A stretch of 64,000 nt of DNA, from the NCBI RefSeq assembly GCF_040741455.2, contig NZ_CP160328.2, forward strand, positions 1,863,701 through 1,927,700, in the 5' to 3' direction. Below, piece by piece: positions 4,450 through 10,659 of the stretch (positions are counted from its first letter, which is position 1; each line of letters opens with the position of its first letter). Origin of the DNA: Snodgrassella alvi. GTDB taxonomy: Bacteria; Pseudomonadota; Gammaproteobacteria; Burkholderiales; Neisseriaceae. Both the position numbers and the translations under genes were made by a program. The notes below the pieces were generated by a model. It was not told where the DNA came from, searched no databases, and was given only the letters and a program-made list of their open reading frames with translations.

Positions 4450-4564
4450 GTCTGGCGGCCATAGCGGGTTGGTCCCACGCCTTCCCATCCCGAACAGGAC
4501 CGTGAAACGACCTAGCGCCGATGATAGTATGGATGCCCATGTGAAAGTAGGACACCGCCAGACA
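4450..4564 (+). rRNA. rrf: 5S ribosomal RNA
   Basis: About 115 bases. The terminal helix tctggcgg pairs with ccgccaga, and the internal cccatcccgaacagg segment is typical of 5S loops B and C. It follows the 23S gene by about 110 bases and closes the rrn operon. The ends may be off by one or two bases. Confidence 0.95.
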
Positions 4565-4576
4565 CCCATTAAAAAG

Positions 4577-4607
4577 AACCCAGTAGATAGTCTACTGGGT
4601 TTTTTGC
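4577..4607 (+). terminator. Rho-independent terminator of the rrn operon
   Basis: A perfect 11-bp stem (aacccagtaga / tctactgggtt) with a 3-base loop is followed by a T run. It lies 13 bases after 5S. Confidence 0.92.
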
Positions 4608-4629
4608 TTTGTGCTGAATGAGAAACTGG

Positions 4630-4842
4630 TTAAGACAAACCAGCGAACCCCTGCTGCCGTAGGGCTTCGTACACTACGATGGCCGCTGCGTTGGATAGAT
4701 TCAATGAGCGGATATGGGAAGTCTGAGGGATACGCAGGCAGTGATCTGCTCTGGCCTGTGCGAACTCCTGCGGCAGGCCGGTCGTTTCGCGGCCGAAGAG
4801 GAAATAGATTGCTTGCCTGCTGTTGCTGTAGTCAAATCCTGT
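4630..4842 (-). pseudogene. trmL: C-terminal remnant of tRNA (cytidine(34)-2'-O)-methyltransferase
   Basis: Reading the minus strand from 4842 down to the stop at 4630-4632 gives about 70 residues. They contain [10 protein letters not shown] and then [19 protein letters not shown], the cofactor-binding and knot motifs at the end of the SPOUT methyltransferase TrmL (about 155 residues when whole). There is no start codon and the first half of the protein is absent. Homology stops at about 4842, exactly where base composition drops into an AT-rich block. TrmL methylates the wobble base of tRNA-Leu. This fragment lacks the N-terminal half of the fold and should be inactive. A full copy probably exists elsewhere (inference). 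Confidence 0.85.
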
Positions 4843-4967
4843 GTGGGGACGGGTATAATTAGTATAAAATTATTAGGTATATATTTACTCATAACTGTTT
4901 CTAAATCAGGGAAAGTTGTTCTTTATTTGTTTGATATCTGATTTAATCAAGATAAATAATCTATATG

Positions 4968-4996
4968 TTGATGGTATTGACAGTTATATATAAAAT
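4968..4996 (+). promoter_or_regulatory. Candidate sigma-70 promoter for the HAD-UbiA gene
   Basis: TTGATG at 4968-4973 and TAAAAT at 4991-4996 are 17 bases apart, about 34 bases before the GTG start at 5030. An overlapping TTGACA at 4977 has no -10 box at a usable distance. The surroundings are very AT-rich, so chance matches are likely. Confidence 0.4.
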
Positions 4997-5029
4997 TATT
5001 TTTTTTGTTTGATTTGTTAAGGAAAAATA

Positions 5030-6460
5030 GTGCAAGAATCTAGTCATCCACTTGTAGTGGATTTAGATGGAACTTTAATTCTGACTGATTCGTTACATGA
5101 AACTTTAATAGCCTTGATTAAGATAAAACCTTATGTAATTTTTAAACTGATCAAGTTATGTTTTCATAGCAAGGTAGAATTAAAAAAATTTGTTTATGAG
5201 CAGACAGGTTATCGTGCTGAACAAATGCCTTATCGCCAAGAACTACTCGAATATATTTGGCATGAAAAACAAAATGGAAGAAAAATCTATCTAGCCACTG
5301 CTGCATATGAGGGTATTGCAGAAAAAACAGCTAACTATCTTCAATGTTTCGATGATGTTATTGCTACTAATTCTAGGCAAAATCTAAAAGGTATTAATAA
5401 ACTCAATGCCATACAGGAAAAGATTGGTCAAGAATTTGTTTATGCTGGTGATAATGTTGCTGATTTAGTAATCTGGAAGGAAGCATGTGGTGCAATTGTA
5501 GTAGGAAAAAAAGTAAATCAATTAACTCTCAAGATTCAACAATCTGGAACACCTGTTTTAAAGAAATGGGAAAATACTGGTTTTAGCATCAATACTTGGA
5601 TGAAAGCGATTCGCATACATCAATGGCTAAAAAATATTTTACTTTTTGTTCCTCTGTTAACTGCTTTTCAATTCTTTGATTTGCATAAATTATTTACAAC
5701 TTTTGTCGGATTTGTGGCTTTTTCTTTAGGTGCATCAGCAACTTATATCCTTAACGATTTATGGGACATAGAAAATGATCGTGTCCATAGTAATAAAATG
5801 CAGCGCCCTTTTGCATCGGGAAAGTTATCAATCGTACAAGGTATAACAGCCAGTCTAGTACTATTAATCATTGCTGCTATTATTGCTATCAATATTTCTT
5901 GGATGTTTTTTAGTGTTTTTTTATTATATTTATTGATAACTACTATATATAGTTTGAGATTAAAACAAATTATATTGCTTGATATTATAATTTTGTCTGT
6001 TCTGTATACCATCCGAATTTTTGCTGGAGGTGTGGTTACAAATATTGATTTAAGCTATCCGCTTTTAGCTTTTTCAATTTCTATTTTTTTAAGTCTAGCT
6101 ACAGTTAAACGTTGTACTGAGCTGATTGCTATGCCAGATGAAAAAAAAGTAATTGCTGGTAGGGGGTATATTAAATCTGATTTGGATATACTTTGGCCTT
6201 TGGGTATAAGTACCTATATCGGAGCCATTATTCTATTTGGTCTATACATCACTGCGTCTGAAACAATTGTTCTTTATCATGTCCCCGCTTTATTGTGGTT
6301 GGTGCAGCTCCTCATGATTTATTTGATAGGTAACTTATGGATGATGACAAAACGTGGTTTGATGAATGAAGATCCAATTGTTTTTTTAATTCAGGATAAA
6401 AAAAGCCTAGCTTTGCTGGCTTTAATTGTAGGTATCATATTATTGGCTAGATATTTATAA
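5030..6460 (+). CDS. HAD-phosphatase / UbiA prenyltransferase fusion protein
   Basis: 476 residues. Residues 1-165 form a HAD-like domain with motif I DLDGT at 11-15 and a late GDN acidic motif near 140. Residues 185-476 form a UbiA-type integral membrane prenyltransferase with about eight helices and the Mg-diphosphate motif NDLWDIEND at 242-250. Fusions of this kind are related to decaprenyl-phosphate phosphoribosyltransferase, which moves phosphoribose from PRPP to a polyprenyl phosphate while the HAD part could remove the 5' phosphate. The substrate here is inferred from family only. The start is GTG at 5030, preceded by aagga with good spacing. Base composition is far more AT-rich than the housekeeping genes, which suggests transfer. 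DprE1/DprE2-type epimerases, common partners of this family, are absent nearby. Confidence 0.8.
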   Translation: MQESSHPLVVDLDGTLILTDSLHETLIALIKIKPYVIFKLIKLCFHSKVELKKFVYEQTGYRAEQMPYRQELLEYIWHEKQNGRKIYLATAAYEGIAEKTANYLQCFDDVIATNSRQNLKGINKLNAIQEKIGQEFVYAGDNVADLVIWKEACGAIVVGKKVNQLTLKIQQSGTPVLKKWENTGFSINTWMKAIRIHQWLKNILLFVPLLTAFQFFDLHKLFTTFVGFVAFSLGASATYILNDLWDIENDRVHSNKMQRPFASGKLSIVQGITASLVLLIIAAIIAINISWMFFSVFLLYLLITTIYSLRLKQIILLDIIILSVLYTIRIFAGGVVTNIDLSYPLLAFSISIFLSLATVKRCTELIAMPDEKKVIAGRGYIKSDLDILWPLGISTYIGAIILFGLYITASETIVLYHVPALLWLVQLLMIYLIGNLWMMTKRGLMNEDPIVFLIQDKKSLALLALIVGIILLARYL

Positions 6461-6777
6461 ATTTAGAAAGTGGAAGAGTTGCAGAAATATTTTCTACTTG
6501 CTGTTATTAATTCTAGAATAGGGTTATAAGCCATTTTAGTACATTTCAATTCCGGACTATTTGTTTAGCAGGTTCATACTGGATTCAATATACTTGGCGT
6601 ATCATTTTTGATGATTTTGTATAACACACCTATTCAAAGTATTGTTCGCGAACGTTGATTAAAAGTTTATGTTAGATACTGGTAAGATAATTCGATAATT
6701 TGTATGAATTCTGTCTAGTACCGATATTGAGTGATATGTGCCGATTGTAATAATCTTAAAGATTCGGATAAAAATCG
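6461..6777 (+). other. AT-rich spacer without a recognisable gene
   Basis: A 317-base gap inside the AT-rich island. No open frame of useful length, terminator or strong promoter stands out. It may hold the promoter of the following membrane-protein gene or eroded sequence. Confidence 0.5.
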
Positions 6778-9105
6778 ATGAACCAAAATAAAATTAACCT
6801 TAAACAGGCTCTGTTATTTTCTACATTATATGCTATTACTGTTATAACTATTTGTTGTTTGTTTCAGAACGATTTTTTTTGTGTTGATGATGCCGAATTT
6901 GAAATGCTGGGTTTTTTCAGACAGATGGGTCATATATGGTCACAGGGTAAAATACCTTTAATTGTTGATTCGATGTATTTTGGCGGTAATGAAGTGATTG
7001 ATTTAGATAGAGGAATTTTTTTGCCGCAAAATATTCTCGTTTCTCTCATTACTTCCAAGTTTGATGATATTCAGTTACCTGGACGGGTATTAGCTTTCAT
7101 TAATATTGTATTAGTATGCCTTTCGTCTTTGTCTATTGCTAAAACGTTCAAACTGCAAAATTGTTATGCTTATGCATTTGCTAGTTTAGCTGTGATTCAG
7201 CCAATTTTTCTTTATCAGTATTTAGGTGCATGGTGGAATGCAGCTAGTGGGCAGGCTTGGGCCATGGTTTCTATTGCCACTTTTTTGTTACTTCTAAATC
7301 ATTTTTCTAAAACAAATATTGTTTTAAATTTTATTTCAGTCATTTTTTTGTTAGCAGCTGGCTGGCCACATGGTGTCATCGGTTACGTTGTTTTTGTTGT
7401 AGTCAGTGTAGCTTATCAACTGAAACAATCTAATGGATTGCAAAAAGCATTTTATTTAAGTTTACCTACCGTTTTGGCTTTTATTTTTGCTTTTCCTATT
7501 TATTCTGAATATATTTTTTCTCATGAGTTAATTAACCGAGTTAGTGGATTTGATAACCAAAATAAAGCTTTTATACCGTCTTGGGCAACAATCATTATGG
7601 GTTTTTTCCCTACATTTTATGATTACATGACTTATTTTAGCTATAAATTAATACTCATTCCTTTAGGTTTTTCAACTTTATTCGTACCAATAGTTTTTTT
7701 TTACTACAATGTGAAATCATTATGGCAAAAAAATGACAATTTAAAAATATTTTTGACTTTAATGATTGCGTTTTTTGTTTTGTCACAAATGCCCAGTCAG
7801 TTTGGACCTTTTCGCTGGCCTTTTCGCTTTTTACCTTTTCTAAGTTTATTTGAGTGTTTAGCTGTATTCTATATTTTGCAATTTGCTCAAGGTATAAATG
7901 AGAAAGGTATAAAATTAAATAAAAAAATTTCTTTTGTTTTATACATTATCTTGGGCTGTTTTTTTCTTGGATTACCTTTTTATGCCGGATTTGATACATT
8001 CGCGCTGATTTTATGTTTTATATTAATTTTATTTTTATTGGAGCGCGATTCATTTTTTTTAAATAAAAGTATTTTGGCAAATTTGAATAAGAAATATTTG
8101 TGTTTTATTCTTTTATCGTCAATATTTGTTTTTTTTAATTCTTGGAATCTCCATCCTATTTTTGTTGTGTTGCAGATTTTTTCAATTTGGTTACTTTTAT
8201 TGAGCCCTATGTTTATAAAGAGAAAAAGCTCATTTTCAATGGTAGGGTTAAGTTTATTAATACTATTAATTATATTAAATGGATTGCCAACTTTGGGTGG
8301 CTATTATTCGAGACATACTGATTTAGCAGAGCAAATTAGTTTACCTAAAAATGTCAATTTGGAAGGCTATGTTTTATCGCTTCCAGATAATACTAATTTA
8401 AATCAGATTAGACAATTTAATGATATTGCTTCTGCTCTGTTTGGTTTTTATGGTATTAAATCAATAAATGGTTATACTCCGGTTGGTAATAAAAGATTAG
8501 ATAAGATTCTGCCTGCAAATCAAACTTCGCATGGTATTTTCAAGCCTGAGATGTCTTTAAAGAATATTTTGCAATTATCTGACAAATCTCATGTTTGCCA
8601 GGCTGAGTTGATGCGTATTAGCACAATTATTGTAGATGAAGCTAAATATTCTGCTTTTAGTTCTCAGTTTAAGCAATGTGGATACACTGTGGTTCAATTT
8701 GCAGGAAGTAGGCATGATCTTTATGTTTCTTTACCGTTAGACAAAACTATAGGATGGAACAGAAATTCTCCTTTTGTATTTCCTAATATTGCGGGCGTTA
8801 ATGTTTTATCACATCAGAATAATATTGATTTAATTAGAATCCCAGAACATAAAGAGGTGTTAACTCTTATTTTTCCTCGCTTATGGTGGTTTGGTTATAC
8901 TGCAAAAATTAACGATCACTCTTTACCTGTTGTTGCGGATGATTCAGGATCTTTAGTGCAAGTTTCAGTCCCACCACAATGGAATGGTGTGTTAAAGCTT
9001 AGTTATTTTCCTGTTACTTGGCGCTATGTTTGGGTTTTACCTTTGGTTGCCATGTTTGCGCTAATTTTATTATTGATATTTAATAGAGATATGAAATTTA
9101 GGTAG
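6778..9105 (+). CDS. Large polytopic membrane protein, possibly GT-C / YfhO-like
   Basis: 775 residues. There are about 12 to 14 hydrophobic segments up to residue 510, an extracytoplasmic C-terminal region of about 220 residues, and one last helix at 748-770. The first large loop after helix 1 carries acidic DDAEFE (near residue 39), in the position where GT-C glycosyltransferases keep catalytic Asp/Glu residues. The layout resembles YfhO-type proteins, which use polyprenyl-linked sugars on the outer face of the inner membrane. This assignment rests on topology rather than a diagnostic motif. With the HAD-UbiA protein upstream it could form a lipid-linked sugar synthesis and transfer pair. 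The ATG at 6778 has no clear ribosome site. The gene is strongly AT-rich, with many TTT and ATT codons. Confidence 0.6.
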   Translation: MNQNKINLKQALLFSTLYAITVITICCLFQNDFFCVDDAEFEMLGFFRQMGHIWSQGKIPLIVDSMYFGGNEVIDLDRGIFLPQNILVSLITSKFDDIQLPGRVLAFINIVLVCLSSLSIAKTFKLQNCYAYAFASLAVIQPIFLYQYLGAWWNAASGQAWAMVSIATFLLLLNHFSKTNIVLNFISVIFLLAAGWPHGVIGYVVFVVVSVAYQLKQSNGLQKAFYLSLPTVLAFIFAFPIYSEYIFSHELINRVSGFDNQNKAFIPSWATIIMGFFPTFYDYMTYFSYKLILIPLGFSTLFVPIVFFYYNVKSLWQKNDNLKIFLTLMIAFFVLSQMPSQFGPFRWPFRFLPFLSLFECLAVFYILQFAQGINEKGIKLNKKISFVLYIILGCFFLGLPFYAGFDTFALILCFILILFLLERDSFFLNKSILANLNKKYLCFILLSSIFVFFNSWNLHPIFVVLQIFSIWLLLLSPMFIKRKSSFSMVGLSLLILLIILNGLPTLGGYYSRHTDLAEQISLPKNVNLEGYVLSLPDNTNLNQIRQFNDIASALFGFYGIKSINGYTPVGNKRLDKILPANQTSHGIFKPEMSLKNILQLSDKSHVCQAELMRISTIIVDEAKYSAFSSQFKQCGYTVVQFAGSRHDLYVSLPLDKTIGWNRNSPFVFPNIAGVNVLSHQNNIDLIRIPEHKEVLTLIFPRLWWFGYTAKINDHSLPVVADDSGSLVQVSVPPQWNGVLKLSYFPVTWRYVWVLPLVAMFALILLLIFNRDMKFR

Positions 9106-9175
9106 AATATTGAATTTTTGTTAGAATTTAATATTCTGATATATATTAAAGCTGGATAATACGTTTTTAATGTTT

Positions 9176-9217
9176 AAATGCACTTTATATTTTGATGTAA
9201 AGTGCATTTTTTCTTTT
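9176..9217 (+). terminator. Rho-independent terminator after the AT-rich island
   Basis: A perfect 12-bp stem, aaatgcacttta / taaagtgcattt, with a 10-base loop and a long T-rich tail. It lies 70 bases after the membrane-protein stop. Confidence 0.85.
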
Positions 9218-9430
9218 AATTTTTTTGGATATTAAACTATCAATTAACAACTTAATTTTAATATTGTTGGAAATAAATTTAAGTTATTAGTTTGATTTTT
9301 GGTTATAAATATGTAATCTATTTAAATAAATCATATATTTATATAATAAGTTCTTAATAATTAGTGTCAATAACATCAAATTCTGTTTTTAATTATTCTT
9401 TTTTGTCAATGAAAATCGTGTTTGTTAAGC

Positions 9431-9436
9431 TATAAT
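9431..9436 (+). promoter_or_regulatory. Candidate -10 box for the M20 hydrolase gene
   Basis: A consensus TATAAT lies about 35 bases before the preferred start codon. No good -35 box sits at 16-18 bases; TTGTCA at 9403 is 22 bases away. The remainder of 9218-9430 is AT-rich with no gene visible. Confidence 0.4.
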
Positions 9437-9471
9437 CCTTTCTTTTAAAGAATATGTGTAAGGGTATGTTT

Positions 9472-10659
9472 ATGAAAGCAGTTAGGGAAATGGTAGAGGC
9501 TGAATTGGATACTTTTGTTCAGTTGCGTCATGATATTCATCAACACCCTGAGCTGGCTTTTGCTGAAAATCGTACCAGTGATCTGGTTGCTGGTATGTTG
9601 GAGCAATGGGGTTATCAAGTTGAGCGAGGAATTGGAGGCACCGGTTTAGTTGCCCAGCTTCGTGTTGGTGATGGTTCAAAGAGTGTTGGTATTCGTGCTG
9701 ATATGGATGCCCTTCCGATTTTGGAAGAAAGTGGTGTGACGCATTCGAGTAAACATGAAGGGAAGATGCATGCCTGTGGTCATGATGGGCATACGACGAT
9801 GTTGTTGGCAGCAGCGAAAGTGCTGGCAAGTAGAAAGGCGTTTAATGGAACGCTGAATTTGATTTTTCAGCCGGCTGAAGAGTATGGTAAATCGGGTAGC
9901 GGCGCAATGCAGATGATTGCTGACGGCCTTTTTGAAAAATATCCGTGTGATGCGGTATATGGTATGCACAATATGCCTGGTTATCCTCAAGGTGAATTGC
10001 ATTTTTATGATGGCTGGATGATGGCTTCTTCTGATGTGGCTACGATTACGGTTAAAGGGGTAGGTGGTCACGGGGCGAAACCGCATAATACGCACGACCC
10101 TATTGTGGCTGCTTCTTCTATTGTGATGGCTTTGCAGACGATTGTGTCTCGTAATGTAAATCCGCTTGATTCAGCAGTGGTGACTGTGGGTATGTTCCAT
10201 GCAGGTGTAGCCAATAATGTGATACCGGAACAAGCTGAATTAAAGCTGACTGTGCGTTGTTTTAAGCCGGAAGTACGTAAGATGTTGCAGGAACGTATTG
10301 AGGCTATAGCTCATGCTCAGGCACAAAGTTTTAATGTGGTGGCTTCTGTGGATTATCAACATGGTTATGCTCCTGTATTTAACACGAGTAAGGAAACACA
10401 ATTTGCCCGTGATGTTGCCCGTGATGTGGTTGCAGAAGAAGATATTGTAGACCAGACGCAACCTATGGCTGGTAGTGAAGATTTTGCGTTTATGCTGGAA
10501 AAGTGTCCGGGAAGTTATTTATTTATTGGTAATGGTCTGAAGGAAAAGGATGCTGCTTCTGGTTTTGATCTGCATAATCCTTATTATGATTTTAATGATA
10601 AGAATATTGTTATTGGTGCCACTTACTGGGTAGCGCTGGCAGAACGATTTTTAAAATAA
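9472..10659 (+). CDS. M20 family amidohydrolase (hippurate / N-acyl-amino-acid hydrolase type)
   Basis: About 395 residues from ATG 9472, which has taaggg 7 bases upstream. In-frame ATGs at 9454 and 9466 are possible but less well placed. Metal-site motifs of peptidase family M20D are in order: ADMDALP, HACGHDGHT, QPAEE and a late AGSEDFAF. The family removes the acyl group from N-acyl amino acids such as hippurate or IAA conjugates, using a di-metal centre in the cytoplasm. The exact substrate cannot be read. The gene lies 39 bases before an MHS transporter, so uptake and hydrolysis of a shared substrate is likely. No signal peptide is visible. Confidence 0.9.
   Translation: MKAVREMVEAELDTFVQLRHDIHQHPELAFAENRTSDLVAGMLEQWGYQVERGIGGTGLVAQLRVGDGSKSVGIRADMDALPILEESGVTHSSKHEGKMHACGHDGHTTMLLAAAKVLASRKAFNGTLNLIFQPAEEYGKSGSGAMQMIADGLFEKYPCDAVYGMHNMPGYPQGELHFYDGWMMASSDVATITVKGVGGHGAKPHNTHDPIVAASSIVMALQTIVSRNVNPLDSAVVTVGMFHAGVANNVIPEQAELKLTVRCFKPEVRKMLQERIEAIAHAQAQSFNVVASVDYQHGYAPVFNTSKETQFARDVARDVVAEEDIVDQTQPMAGSEDFAFMLEKCPGSYLFIGNGLKEKDAASGFDLHNPYYDFNDKNIVIGATYWVALAERFLK

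Follow-up and report, generated by a model that had tools for sequence, protein, structure and literature searches.

How might two neighbouring genes make and use a lipid-linked pentose when the epimerase pair normally needed alongside them is missing? The question is raised by a 64,000-nucleotide stretch of the genome of Snodgrassella alvi (contig NZ_CP160328.2, positions 1,863,701 to 1,927,700; here called the window), which belongs to a genus living in the bee gut. Within it, a gene for a HAD-UbiA fusion protein of 476 amino acids (5030-6460, + strand, GTG start; here the synthase) is followed by a gene for a polytopic membrane protein of 775 amino acids, the proposed transferase (6778-9105, + strand, ATG start). 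A preliminary description of this DNA had reported both open reading frames (ORFs), the motifs DLDGT and NDLWDIEND in the first protein and acidic residues in the first loop of the second, and all of these were confirmed. Its interpretation holds in outline, although not in taking the genes for a minimal donor and transferase pair. As read from the sequences, the pair is what a deletion has spared of an operon with four genes, in the order synthase, SMR flippase, SDR epimerase and transferase; the two middle genes, those of the flippase and the epimerase, have been lost. The puzzle of the missing epimerase is answered in this way, since relatives have an epimerase at this place and it was lost here. 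We consider it likely that the window pair is a reduced three-component pentofuranose system, now working on ribose.

The synthase contains HAD (residues 9-146) and UbiA (209-439) domains, both above the Pfam cut-offs, and the NCBIfam model NF006088 covers its residues 2-474 (E 1.1e-165, score 551.9 against a cut-off of 351). Together with this match, the homologues that each of the two proteins has in further genomes exclude a chance resemblance. The next NCBIfam matches, under their cut-offs, were models of decaprenyl-phosphate phosphoribosyltransferases, and the UbiA half aligns to the Mycobacterium tuberculosis enzyme of that name (PDB 8j8j, E 3.6e-21). The motifs are DLDGT of the HAD half (11-15) and NDLWDIEND (NDxxDxxxD, 242-250) and KRCTEL (KRxxE, 360-365) of the UbiA half; DLDGT, NDLWDIEND and KRCTE are conserved in four genomes. 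A characterised counterpart is ORF15 of the Citrobacter youngae O1/O2 three-component pentofuranose system (Kelly et al. 2024, PMC11127046). Its in vitro activity was lost on changing N247, D248, D251 or D255 of the UbiA half, and a change of D18 in the HAD half led mainly to the phosphorylated product (PMC11127046). As read from the motifs themselves, NDLWDIEND of the window protein matches N247, D248, D251 and D255 in spacing, KRCTE has an R and an E three apart like R366 and E369 of ORF15, and DLDGT corresponds to the motif around D18. The earlier reading of the fusion as a polyprenyl-phosphate phosphoribose synthase is thus upheld by NF006088, 8j8j and the motifs; the sequence supports a putative polyprenyl-phosphate 5'-phosphoribosyltransferase in the UbiA half and a phosphoribose phosphatase, the protein's own, in the HAD half.

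Across 14 genomes of the genus, the synthase and the 775-residue protein were found together in five and never apart, other synthase matches being weak (E 1.4e-7 or worse) and directed to other UbiA proteins. The membrane partner therefore accompanied the synthase in all five carriers, as the preliminary description had expected. These are the genome of the window itself (G000, a single contig of 2.29 Mb), G072, listed as the same species, and G068, G076 and G077. In the last three the end genes lie 1.37-1.38 kb apart with two ORFs between them, giving the order synthase, SMR, SDR, transferase. The first middle gene encodes a 124-residue four-helix protein with an EamA domain above the Pfam cut-off, whose best NCBIfam match is the ArnF model (E 7.3e-14, under its cut-off). 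The second encodes an NAD-dependent epimerase of 327 residues (E 8.8e-39 in Pfam; best match in the PDB a GalE, E 1.5e-23), which in G068 and G077 carries TGGSGFTG (TGxxGxxG) and YxxxK and shows purifying selection between these two genomes (ratio of non-synonymous to synonymous rates, dN/dS, 0.11). In G076 the epimerase ORF is interrupted and lies in two frames, with the end genes open.

In the window and in G072, only about 317 bp separate the two ORFs (6461-6777, + strand, in the window) and some 1.05 kb has gone, leaving a scar that is 95.3% identical between the two strains. The stretch from about 6608 to 6777 is what remains of the epimerase gene, its 3' end in decayed form and interrupted by stop codons; the larger part of that gene and the SMR gene have disappeared. 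Aligned to the epimerase 3' end of G077, the last 170 bp match in 100 of 174 columns, a result equalled by none of 2000 dinucleotide shuffles; tblastn gave the same epimerase-like stretch at E 0.044. It is mainly this comparison with G077, together with the position, that leads us to call the stretch an epimerase remnant. No remnant of the SMR gene was found in the scar, where 1350 of 2000 shuffles reached the score against the SMR protein. The gene lost here encoded a single GalE-type SDR and not a DprE1/DprE2 pair. The "AT-rich two-gene island" of the preliminary description retains its AT-richness, while "two-gene" describes a state after deletion, three relatives carrying four genes.

The epimerase was earlier noted as missing from the locus, which holds, and was suggested, as one of two options, to lie elsewhere, which the searches do not support: in G000 no close second copy of either lost gene was found (29% identity for the top-scoring other SDR, 27% for the other SMR). 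The proposed genome search for dprE1 and dprE2 was carried out for DprE1, with no match in G000 at E 0.001; DprE2, whose family is too general, was not searched. In 11 of the 14 genus genomes there is a DprE1 match, which spans roughly one third of the protein (27-30% identity), the pattern that a generic FAD-binding domain would give. With the epimerase decayed, no close copy of it and no DprE1 match, the alternative also raised at the outset, that the sugar is ribose, gains support for this strain. As for the flippase, two SMR-like genes that stand in tandem in another cluster, unlinked to this locus (G000 C1:1687563-1688269), could supply a substitute; the pair is present also in most other genus genomes.

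Selection on the remaining genes since the loss was tested between G000 and G072 only, both of which share the scar. The synthase differs by 5 non-synonymous and 18 synonymous changes (dN/dS 0.079) and the 775-residue gene by 30 and 27 (dN/dS 0.31), whereas change at the silent pace would give about 61 and 95 non-synonymous differences, respectively (P 7e-21 and 3e-15). The scar itself has diverged by 4.7% between the two strains, like silent sites (5.2-5.5%). The remnant is 57% identical to G077 with gaps counted, against 50-56% at third and 74-83% at first and second positions of the flanking genes; this divergence, close to that of silent sites, points to an old loss, which both end genes appear to have survived. 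Both are full length and free of stops in G000 and G072, and they are open in all five carriers, three of which, in two lineages, lack an intact epimerase. Since purifying selection acts on both end genes in this pair of deletion-bearing strains, they probably still work, on ribose.

For the 775-residue protein, a simple hydropathy scan gave 13 hydrophobic segments, with an extramembrane region of about 240 residues (around 507-749), towards the end of which strands are predicted, before the last hydrophobic helix. D37, D38, E40 and E42 (VDDAEFE from residue 36) sit in the first loop, which follows hydrophobic helix 1, and D37, D38, E42, H198, R346 and R350 are invariant in four Snodgrassella sequences. 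C. youngae ORF12 loses in vivo activity when D31, E34, H106 or R349 is changed (PMC11127046), and judged from the description of ORF12 this likeness in acidic, histidine and arginine residues is suggestive. From the topology, the acidic first loop, the linkage to the synthase and the known system, we propose that the protein is a GT-C pentofuranosyltransferase. Its best Pfam match is DUF4131 (E 0.024, under its cut-off); NCBIfam yielded nothing for the window's protein and a single match (E 2.7) for that of one relative. No match to the protein was found in the 69 other genomes of the family, where it alone was searched, or in plasmid records, and a scan of the genome contigs returned three loci, all from Snodgrassella. 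In a sample of 398 genomes of the phylum, one besides G000 had a profile match, the non-Snodgrassella genome G508, which has a distant relative (profile E 1.8e-4; hhalign probability 94% over the C-terminal 215 columns) two genes away from a family-2 glycosyltransferase gene. The protein points to a transferase family that none of the libraries searched describes.

Taken together, these data allow a mechanism to be proposed, for which the analysis itself establishes gene content, motifs, gene loss and selection, the enzyme activities, the substitute flippase, the transferase fold and the acceptor being inferred. The HAD-UbiA protein, with its own phosphatase domain, would make the lipid-linked ribose donor. 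Ancestrally, as presumably still in G068 and G077, where the genes are intact, the SDR epimerase would have converted the ribose to a different pentofuranose, of which xylofuranose is the likeliest candidate given the parallel to C. youngae O2; the SMR/ArnF-like flippase would have moved the lipid-linked sugar outward. Because the window strain and its conspecific have lost both genes, their donor would stay ribose and be flipped by some other protein. The 775-residue GT-C enzyme would then use the lipid donor in the periplasm to place the pentofuranose on a glycan or glycoprotein, and the acceptor may be bound by the extramembrane part near its C-terminus. This predicts ribofuranose on the surface of the window strain and its epimer on strains of the G068 and G077 types.

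We surveyed 369 genomes of the class, 47 of which, the window's included, had a synthase match at E 1e-50. Surroundings were taken from 37 of the 48 matches outside the window, 11 partial matches being left out, and as 13 of the 37 stretches fell short of the 17 kb covered by the rest, the neighbour counts are lower bounds. Within 6 kb of the synthase, our own profiles found an SMR gene in at least 8 of 37 loci, a DprE1-like gene in 23, a DprE2-like gene in 20 and an SDR related to the lost epimerase in 5 (one of them only 23% identical); none of the four was found in 7. The DprE1 type is thus the commonest, and an SDR without DprE1 occurred in two of the 37 (30-33% identity). Two loci, L096 (4175-9050) and L101 (2844-10522), combine the synthase with a DprE1-like gene, an SMR gene and a 45% identical SDR, L096 having a DprE2-like gene as well. 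Two ring epimerisations might take place there; lyxofuranose would need both and is given in PMC11127046 as not known from polysaccharides. A 956-residue ORF of L101 was considered as a DprE1-DprE2 fusion and rejected, having a DprE1 match only and no DprE2 match at E <= 10. On plasmids, two Burkholderia records (H1 and H2) contain an intact synthase ORF with a weakly SMR-like ORF about 1.2 kb behind it and no match to an SDR, DprE1, DprE2 or related transferase, and in L139, a Vibrio alfacsensis plasmid, a synthase plus EamA-family pair (7983-9772) stands beside XrtA/PEP-CTERM exopolysaccharide genes.

Several observations weigh against our interpretation of the locus. Only two strains in the data share the scar, and the transferase evolves faster than the synthase (proportion of non-synonymous differences 1.7% versus 0.45%, Fisher P 0.004), which fits relaxed constraint. 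The remnant is less distinct against G068 (84 of 175 columns, 22 of 2000 shuffles as good) and against the epimerase C-terminus at the protein level (24 of 5000); 68 of 2000 shuffles reach the score of the whole scar against the epimerase protein, which moreover aligns to another part of that protein. The interruption in G076 may be an assembly error, and no flippase gene is left in the unit. The 775-residue protein has no Pfam or NCBIfam family above cut-off and no sequence match to a solved GT-C (PDB, E <= 10). Its full-length AlphaFold model, built from four sequences, has a mean predicted local distance difference test score (pLDDT) of 40.5 and a predicted template modelling score (pTM) of 0.27; a model of the C-terminal fragment reached a pLDDT of 50.5, with ten-residue means of 56-82 over fragment residues 171-240, and Foldseek found no PDB match for this fragment at E <= 0.001 (best 0.064). 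In addition, no clear ribosome site was seen by eye before the start of the ORF, which lacks the overlap with the epimerase gene found in relatives.

The same observations can be arranged into other explanations. The operon could have died with the loss of flippase and epimerase, its remaining genes drifting as a decaying relic: two of four genes are lost, the transferase dN/dS between the two strains exceeds the 0.18-0.26 between species, and the epimerase frame of G076 is interrupted too. Yet both genes are full length and stop-free after a loss that looks old, and non-synonymous change is far under the silent rate in both, so that we find this account unlikely. Still less probable is that the 775-residue protein is some other polytopic protein, a polymerase, ligase or transporter; although neither a family match nor a usable structural model was obtained for it, its strict linkage to the synthase, the D37-D38-E42 residues after the first helix and the large C-terminal extramembrane region resembling that described for ORF12 (PMC11127046) speak for a sugar transferase.

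The identity of the sugar could also be explained otherwise. If the lost SDR made a nucleotide sugar for the acceptor and never acted on the lipid-linked pentose, the product would always have been ribofuranose. The generic nature of its matches, to GalE- and dehydratase-type models only, would fit, as would the pairing of a 45% identical SDR with a DprE1-like gene at L096 and L101, where an SDR evidently can accompany another epimerising enzyme. We keep this in view as a minority possibility, against which stand the position of the SDR among synthase, flippase and transferase in three genomes and the role demonstrated for the SDR of C. youngae O2 (PMC11127046). A pentose that is arabinofuranose, from DprE1/DprE2 encoded elsewhere as in the mycobacterial or the Pseudomonas pilin type, is very improbable: a DprE1-like gene is the commonest of the four partners sought at the class loci, but the genome of the window has no match at E 0.001 to DprE1, the one of the two that was searched, and the DprE1 matches in the genus are partial. 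The reading of a reduced system working on ribose accommodates these data best in our view.

What the pentose would be attached to can be approached through the sole Wzy_C (PF04932) match in G000, which also carries PglL_A and Wzy_C_2 and resembles a protein O-oligosaccharyltransferase more than an O-antigen ligase. Because this Wzy_C protein is of the PglL type, an O-glycan, pilin or lipooligosaccharide core would be a more likely acceptor than O antigen. A bolder idea, which we rate as doubtful, is that repeated epimerase loss, by the old deletion and by the interruption in G076, switches the surface pentofuranose from the epimer to ribose, and that this sugar decorates an O-linked protein glycan or a pilin and not an O antigen. 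If true, the symbiont would change its surface chemistry through gene loss alone while keeping synthase and transferase, and the three-component system would be known from a further kind of molecule, such a glycan or pilin, in a setting new to it. Sugars on the cell surface can influence how phages attach and how bacteria colonise, and gene deletions in bee gut symbionts are reportedly described in one paper (PMC11389375). Among the open-licence matches listed for this genus, judged by titles and abstract openings, none dealt with Snodgrassella surface glycans. Our results place a recently established glycan-modification pathway in a bee gut symbiont, and related species with and without the epimerase offer a natural experiment on the control of surface sugar identity by a single gene.

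In G076 the pentose operon is flanked by a glycosyltransferase gene and a UDP-galactopyranose mutase gene (L026 4729-6501 and 11934-13046), an arabinogalactan-like combination. The match of this glycosyltransferase to the GlfT2 N-terminal model is weak and under the cut-off; the mutase occurs in 3 of the 14 genus genomes, with no match in G000 at E 1e-20.

The unit sits between the end of a ribosomal RNA (rRNA) operon and a putative amidohydrolase gene, which we name so presumptively from its sequence. The left border is formed by a terminator-like hairpin (4573-4605, + strand) where the upstream rRNA operon ends, and another (9176-9209, + strand; 15 pairs, T-rich tail) is the probable end of the unit; 4500-9460 holds five terminator-like sites, compared with a mean of 2.6 in shuffles. 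Adjoining the rRNA operon, at 4652-4844 on the - strand, is what we take from its motifs to be a remnant of a TrmL-like tRNA methyltransferase. In the same neighbourhood, G068 has a 106-residue fragment of this gene, and G077 and G080 have full-length-looking copies. Both genes of the unit have a GC content of 31-32%, against 45% for the whole window. This composition and the patchy occurrence, in 5 of 14 genus genomes and, for the 775-residue protein, in none of the 69 others of the family, suggest the transfer between species that the preliminary description had proposed.

Eight genus genomes were compared around the neighbouring hydrolase gene, and none of them showed a clean empty site. 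Seven of these contigs end 0.35-4.1 kb upstream of the gene, and the eighth, L136, has another neighbourhood; three of the seven (L129, L130 and L133) reach the rRNA operon, with other cargo or transposase-like ORFs intervening. At L129 (1473-3514) and L130 (825-2902), from G069 and G075, the cargo between rRNA operon and hydrolase is different and includes RNA-ligase-like and HD-hydrolase-like genes, named from their sequences only. Transposase-like ORFs lie in this interval in G070, G071 and G075. The interval looks like an insertion hotspot, because cargo differs between species and transposase-like ORFs are present.

Three known systems can be compared with this locus. The mycobacterial decaprenyl-phosphoryl arabinose (DPA) pathway (Rv3806c, Rv3807c, DprE1/DprE2, Rv3789, Emb/Aft) shares a UbiA-type phosphoribosyltransferase, that of the window being homologous to Rv3806c (8j8j), and a lipid-linked pentofuranose donor used outside the membrane (PMC11127046). 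It differs in that the window phosphatase is a fused HAD domain, G000 has no DprE1 match and the window transferase has no sequence match to PDB chains of such enzymes at E <= 10. A second system is the D-arabinofuranosylation of group IV pilins in Pseudomonas aeruginosa (TfpW). As described in PMC11127046, this system likewise represents synthase-dependent pentofuranosylation in a Gram-negative bacterium, but its synthase is without a phosphatase domain and its sugar is arabinose.

The closest parallel is the C. youngae O1/O2 system, and PMC11127046 was the only relevant paper among the open-licence matches listed for xylofuranose and for pentofuranose/GT136. There, ORF15 yields lipid-linked ribofuranose, ORF14, which is EmrE/ArnE-like and termed MATE, is the presumed flippase, and ORF12 is the GT-C transferase that founded GT136 (PMC11127046). 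ORF13, the SDR of O2, with TGxxGxxG and YxxxK reported, sets the sugar to xylose; its replacement in O2 led to ribose side chains, ORF12 accepts both donors in vitro, and in O1, which displays ribose, remnants of the O2 sequence persist (PMC11127046). The same four functions occur in G068 and G077, as a HAD-then-UbiA protein, a four-helix SMR-like protein, a GalE-type SDR and a polytopic protein, the last being, like ORF12 by its description, large and provided with a C-terminal extramembrane region. Unlike in C. youngae, the window unit lies beside an rRNA operon and not within an O-antigen cluster, and its 775-residue protein is at most a candidate member of GT136. A flippase gene in the unit, which marks the three-component system, is present in G068, G077 and G076 and lost from the window and G072, and the intact SDR with TGxxGxxG and YxxxK that marks the xylofuranose variant is absent from the window. 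Because of the missing flippase, the window locus is not a complete member of the three-component system; it works like that system and is derived from one of its kind, and its natural loss of the epimerase, with a remnant left behind, makes it resemble O1 in relation to O2.

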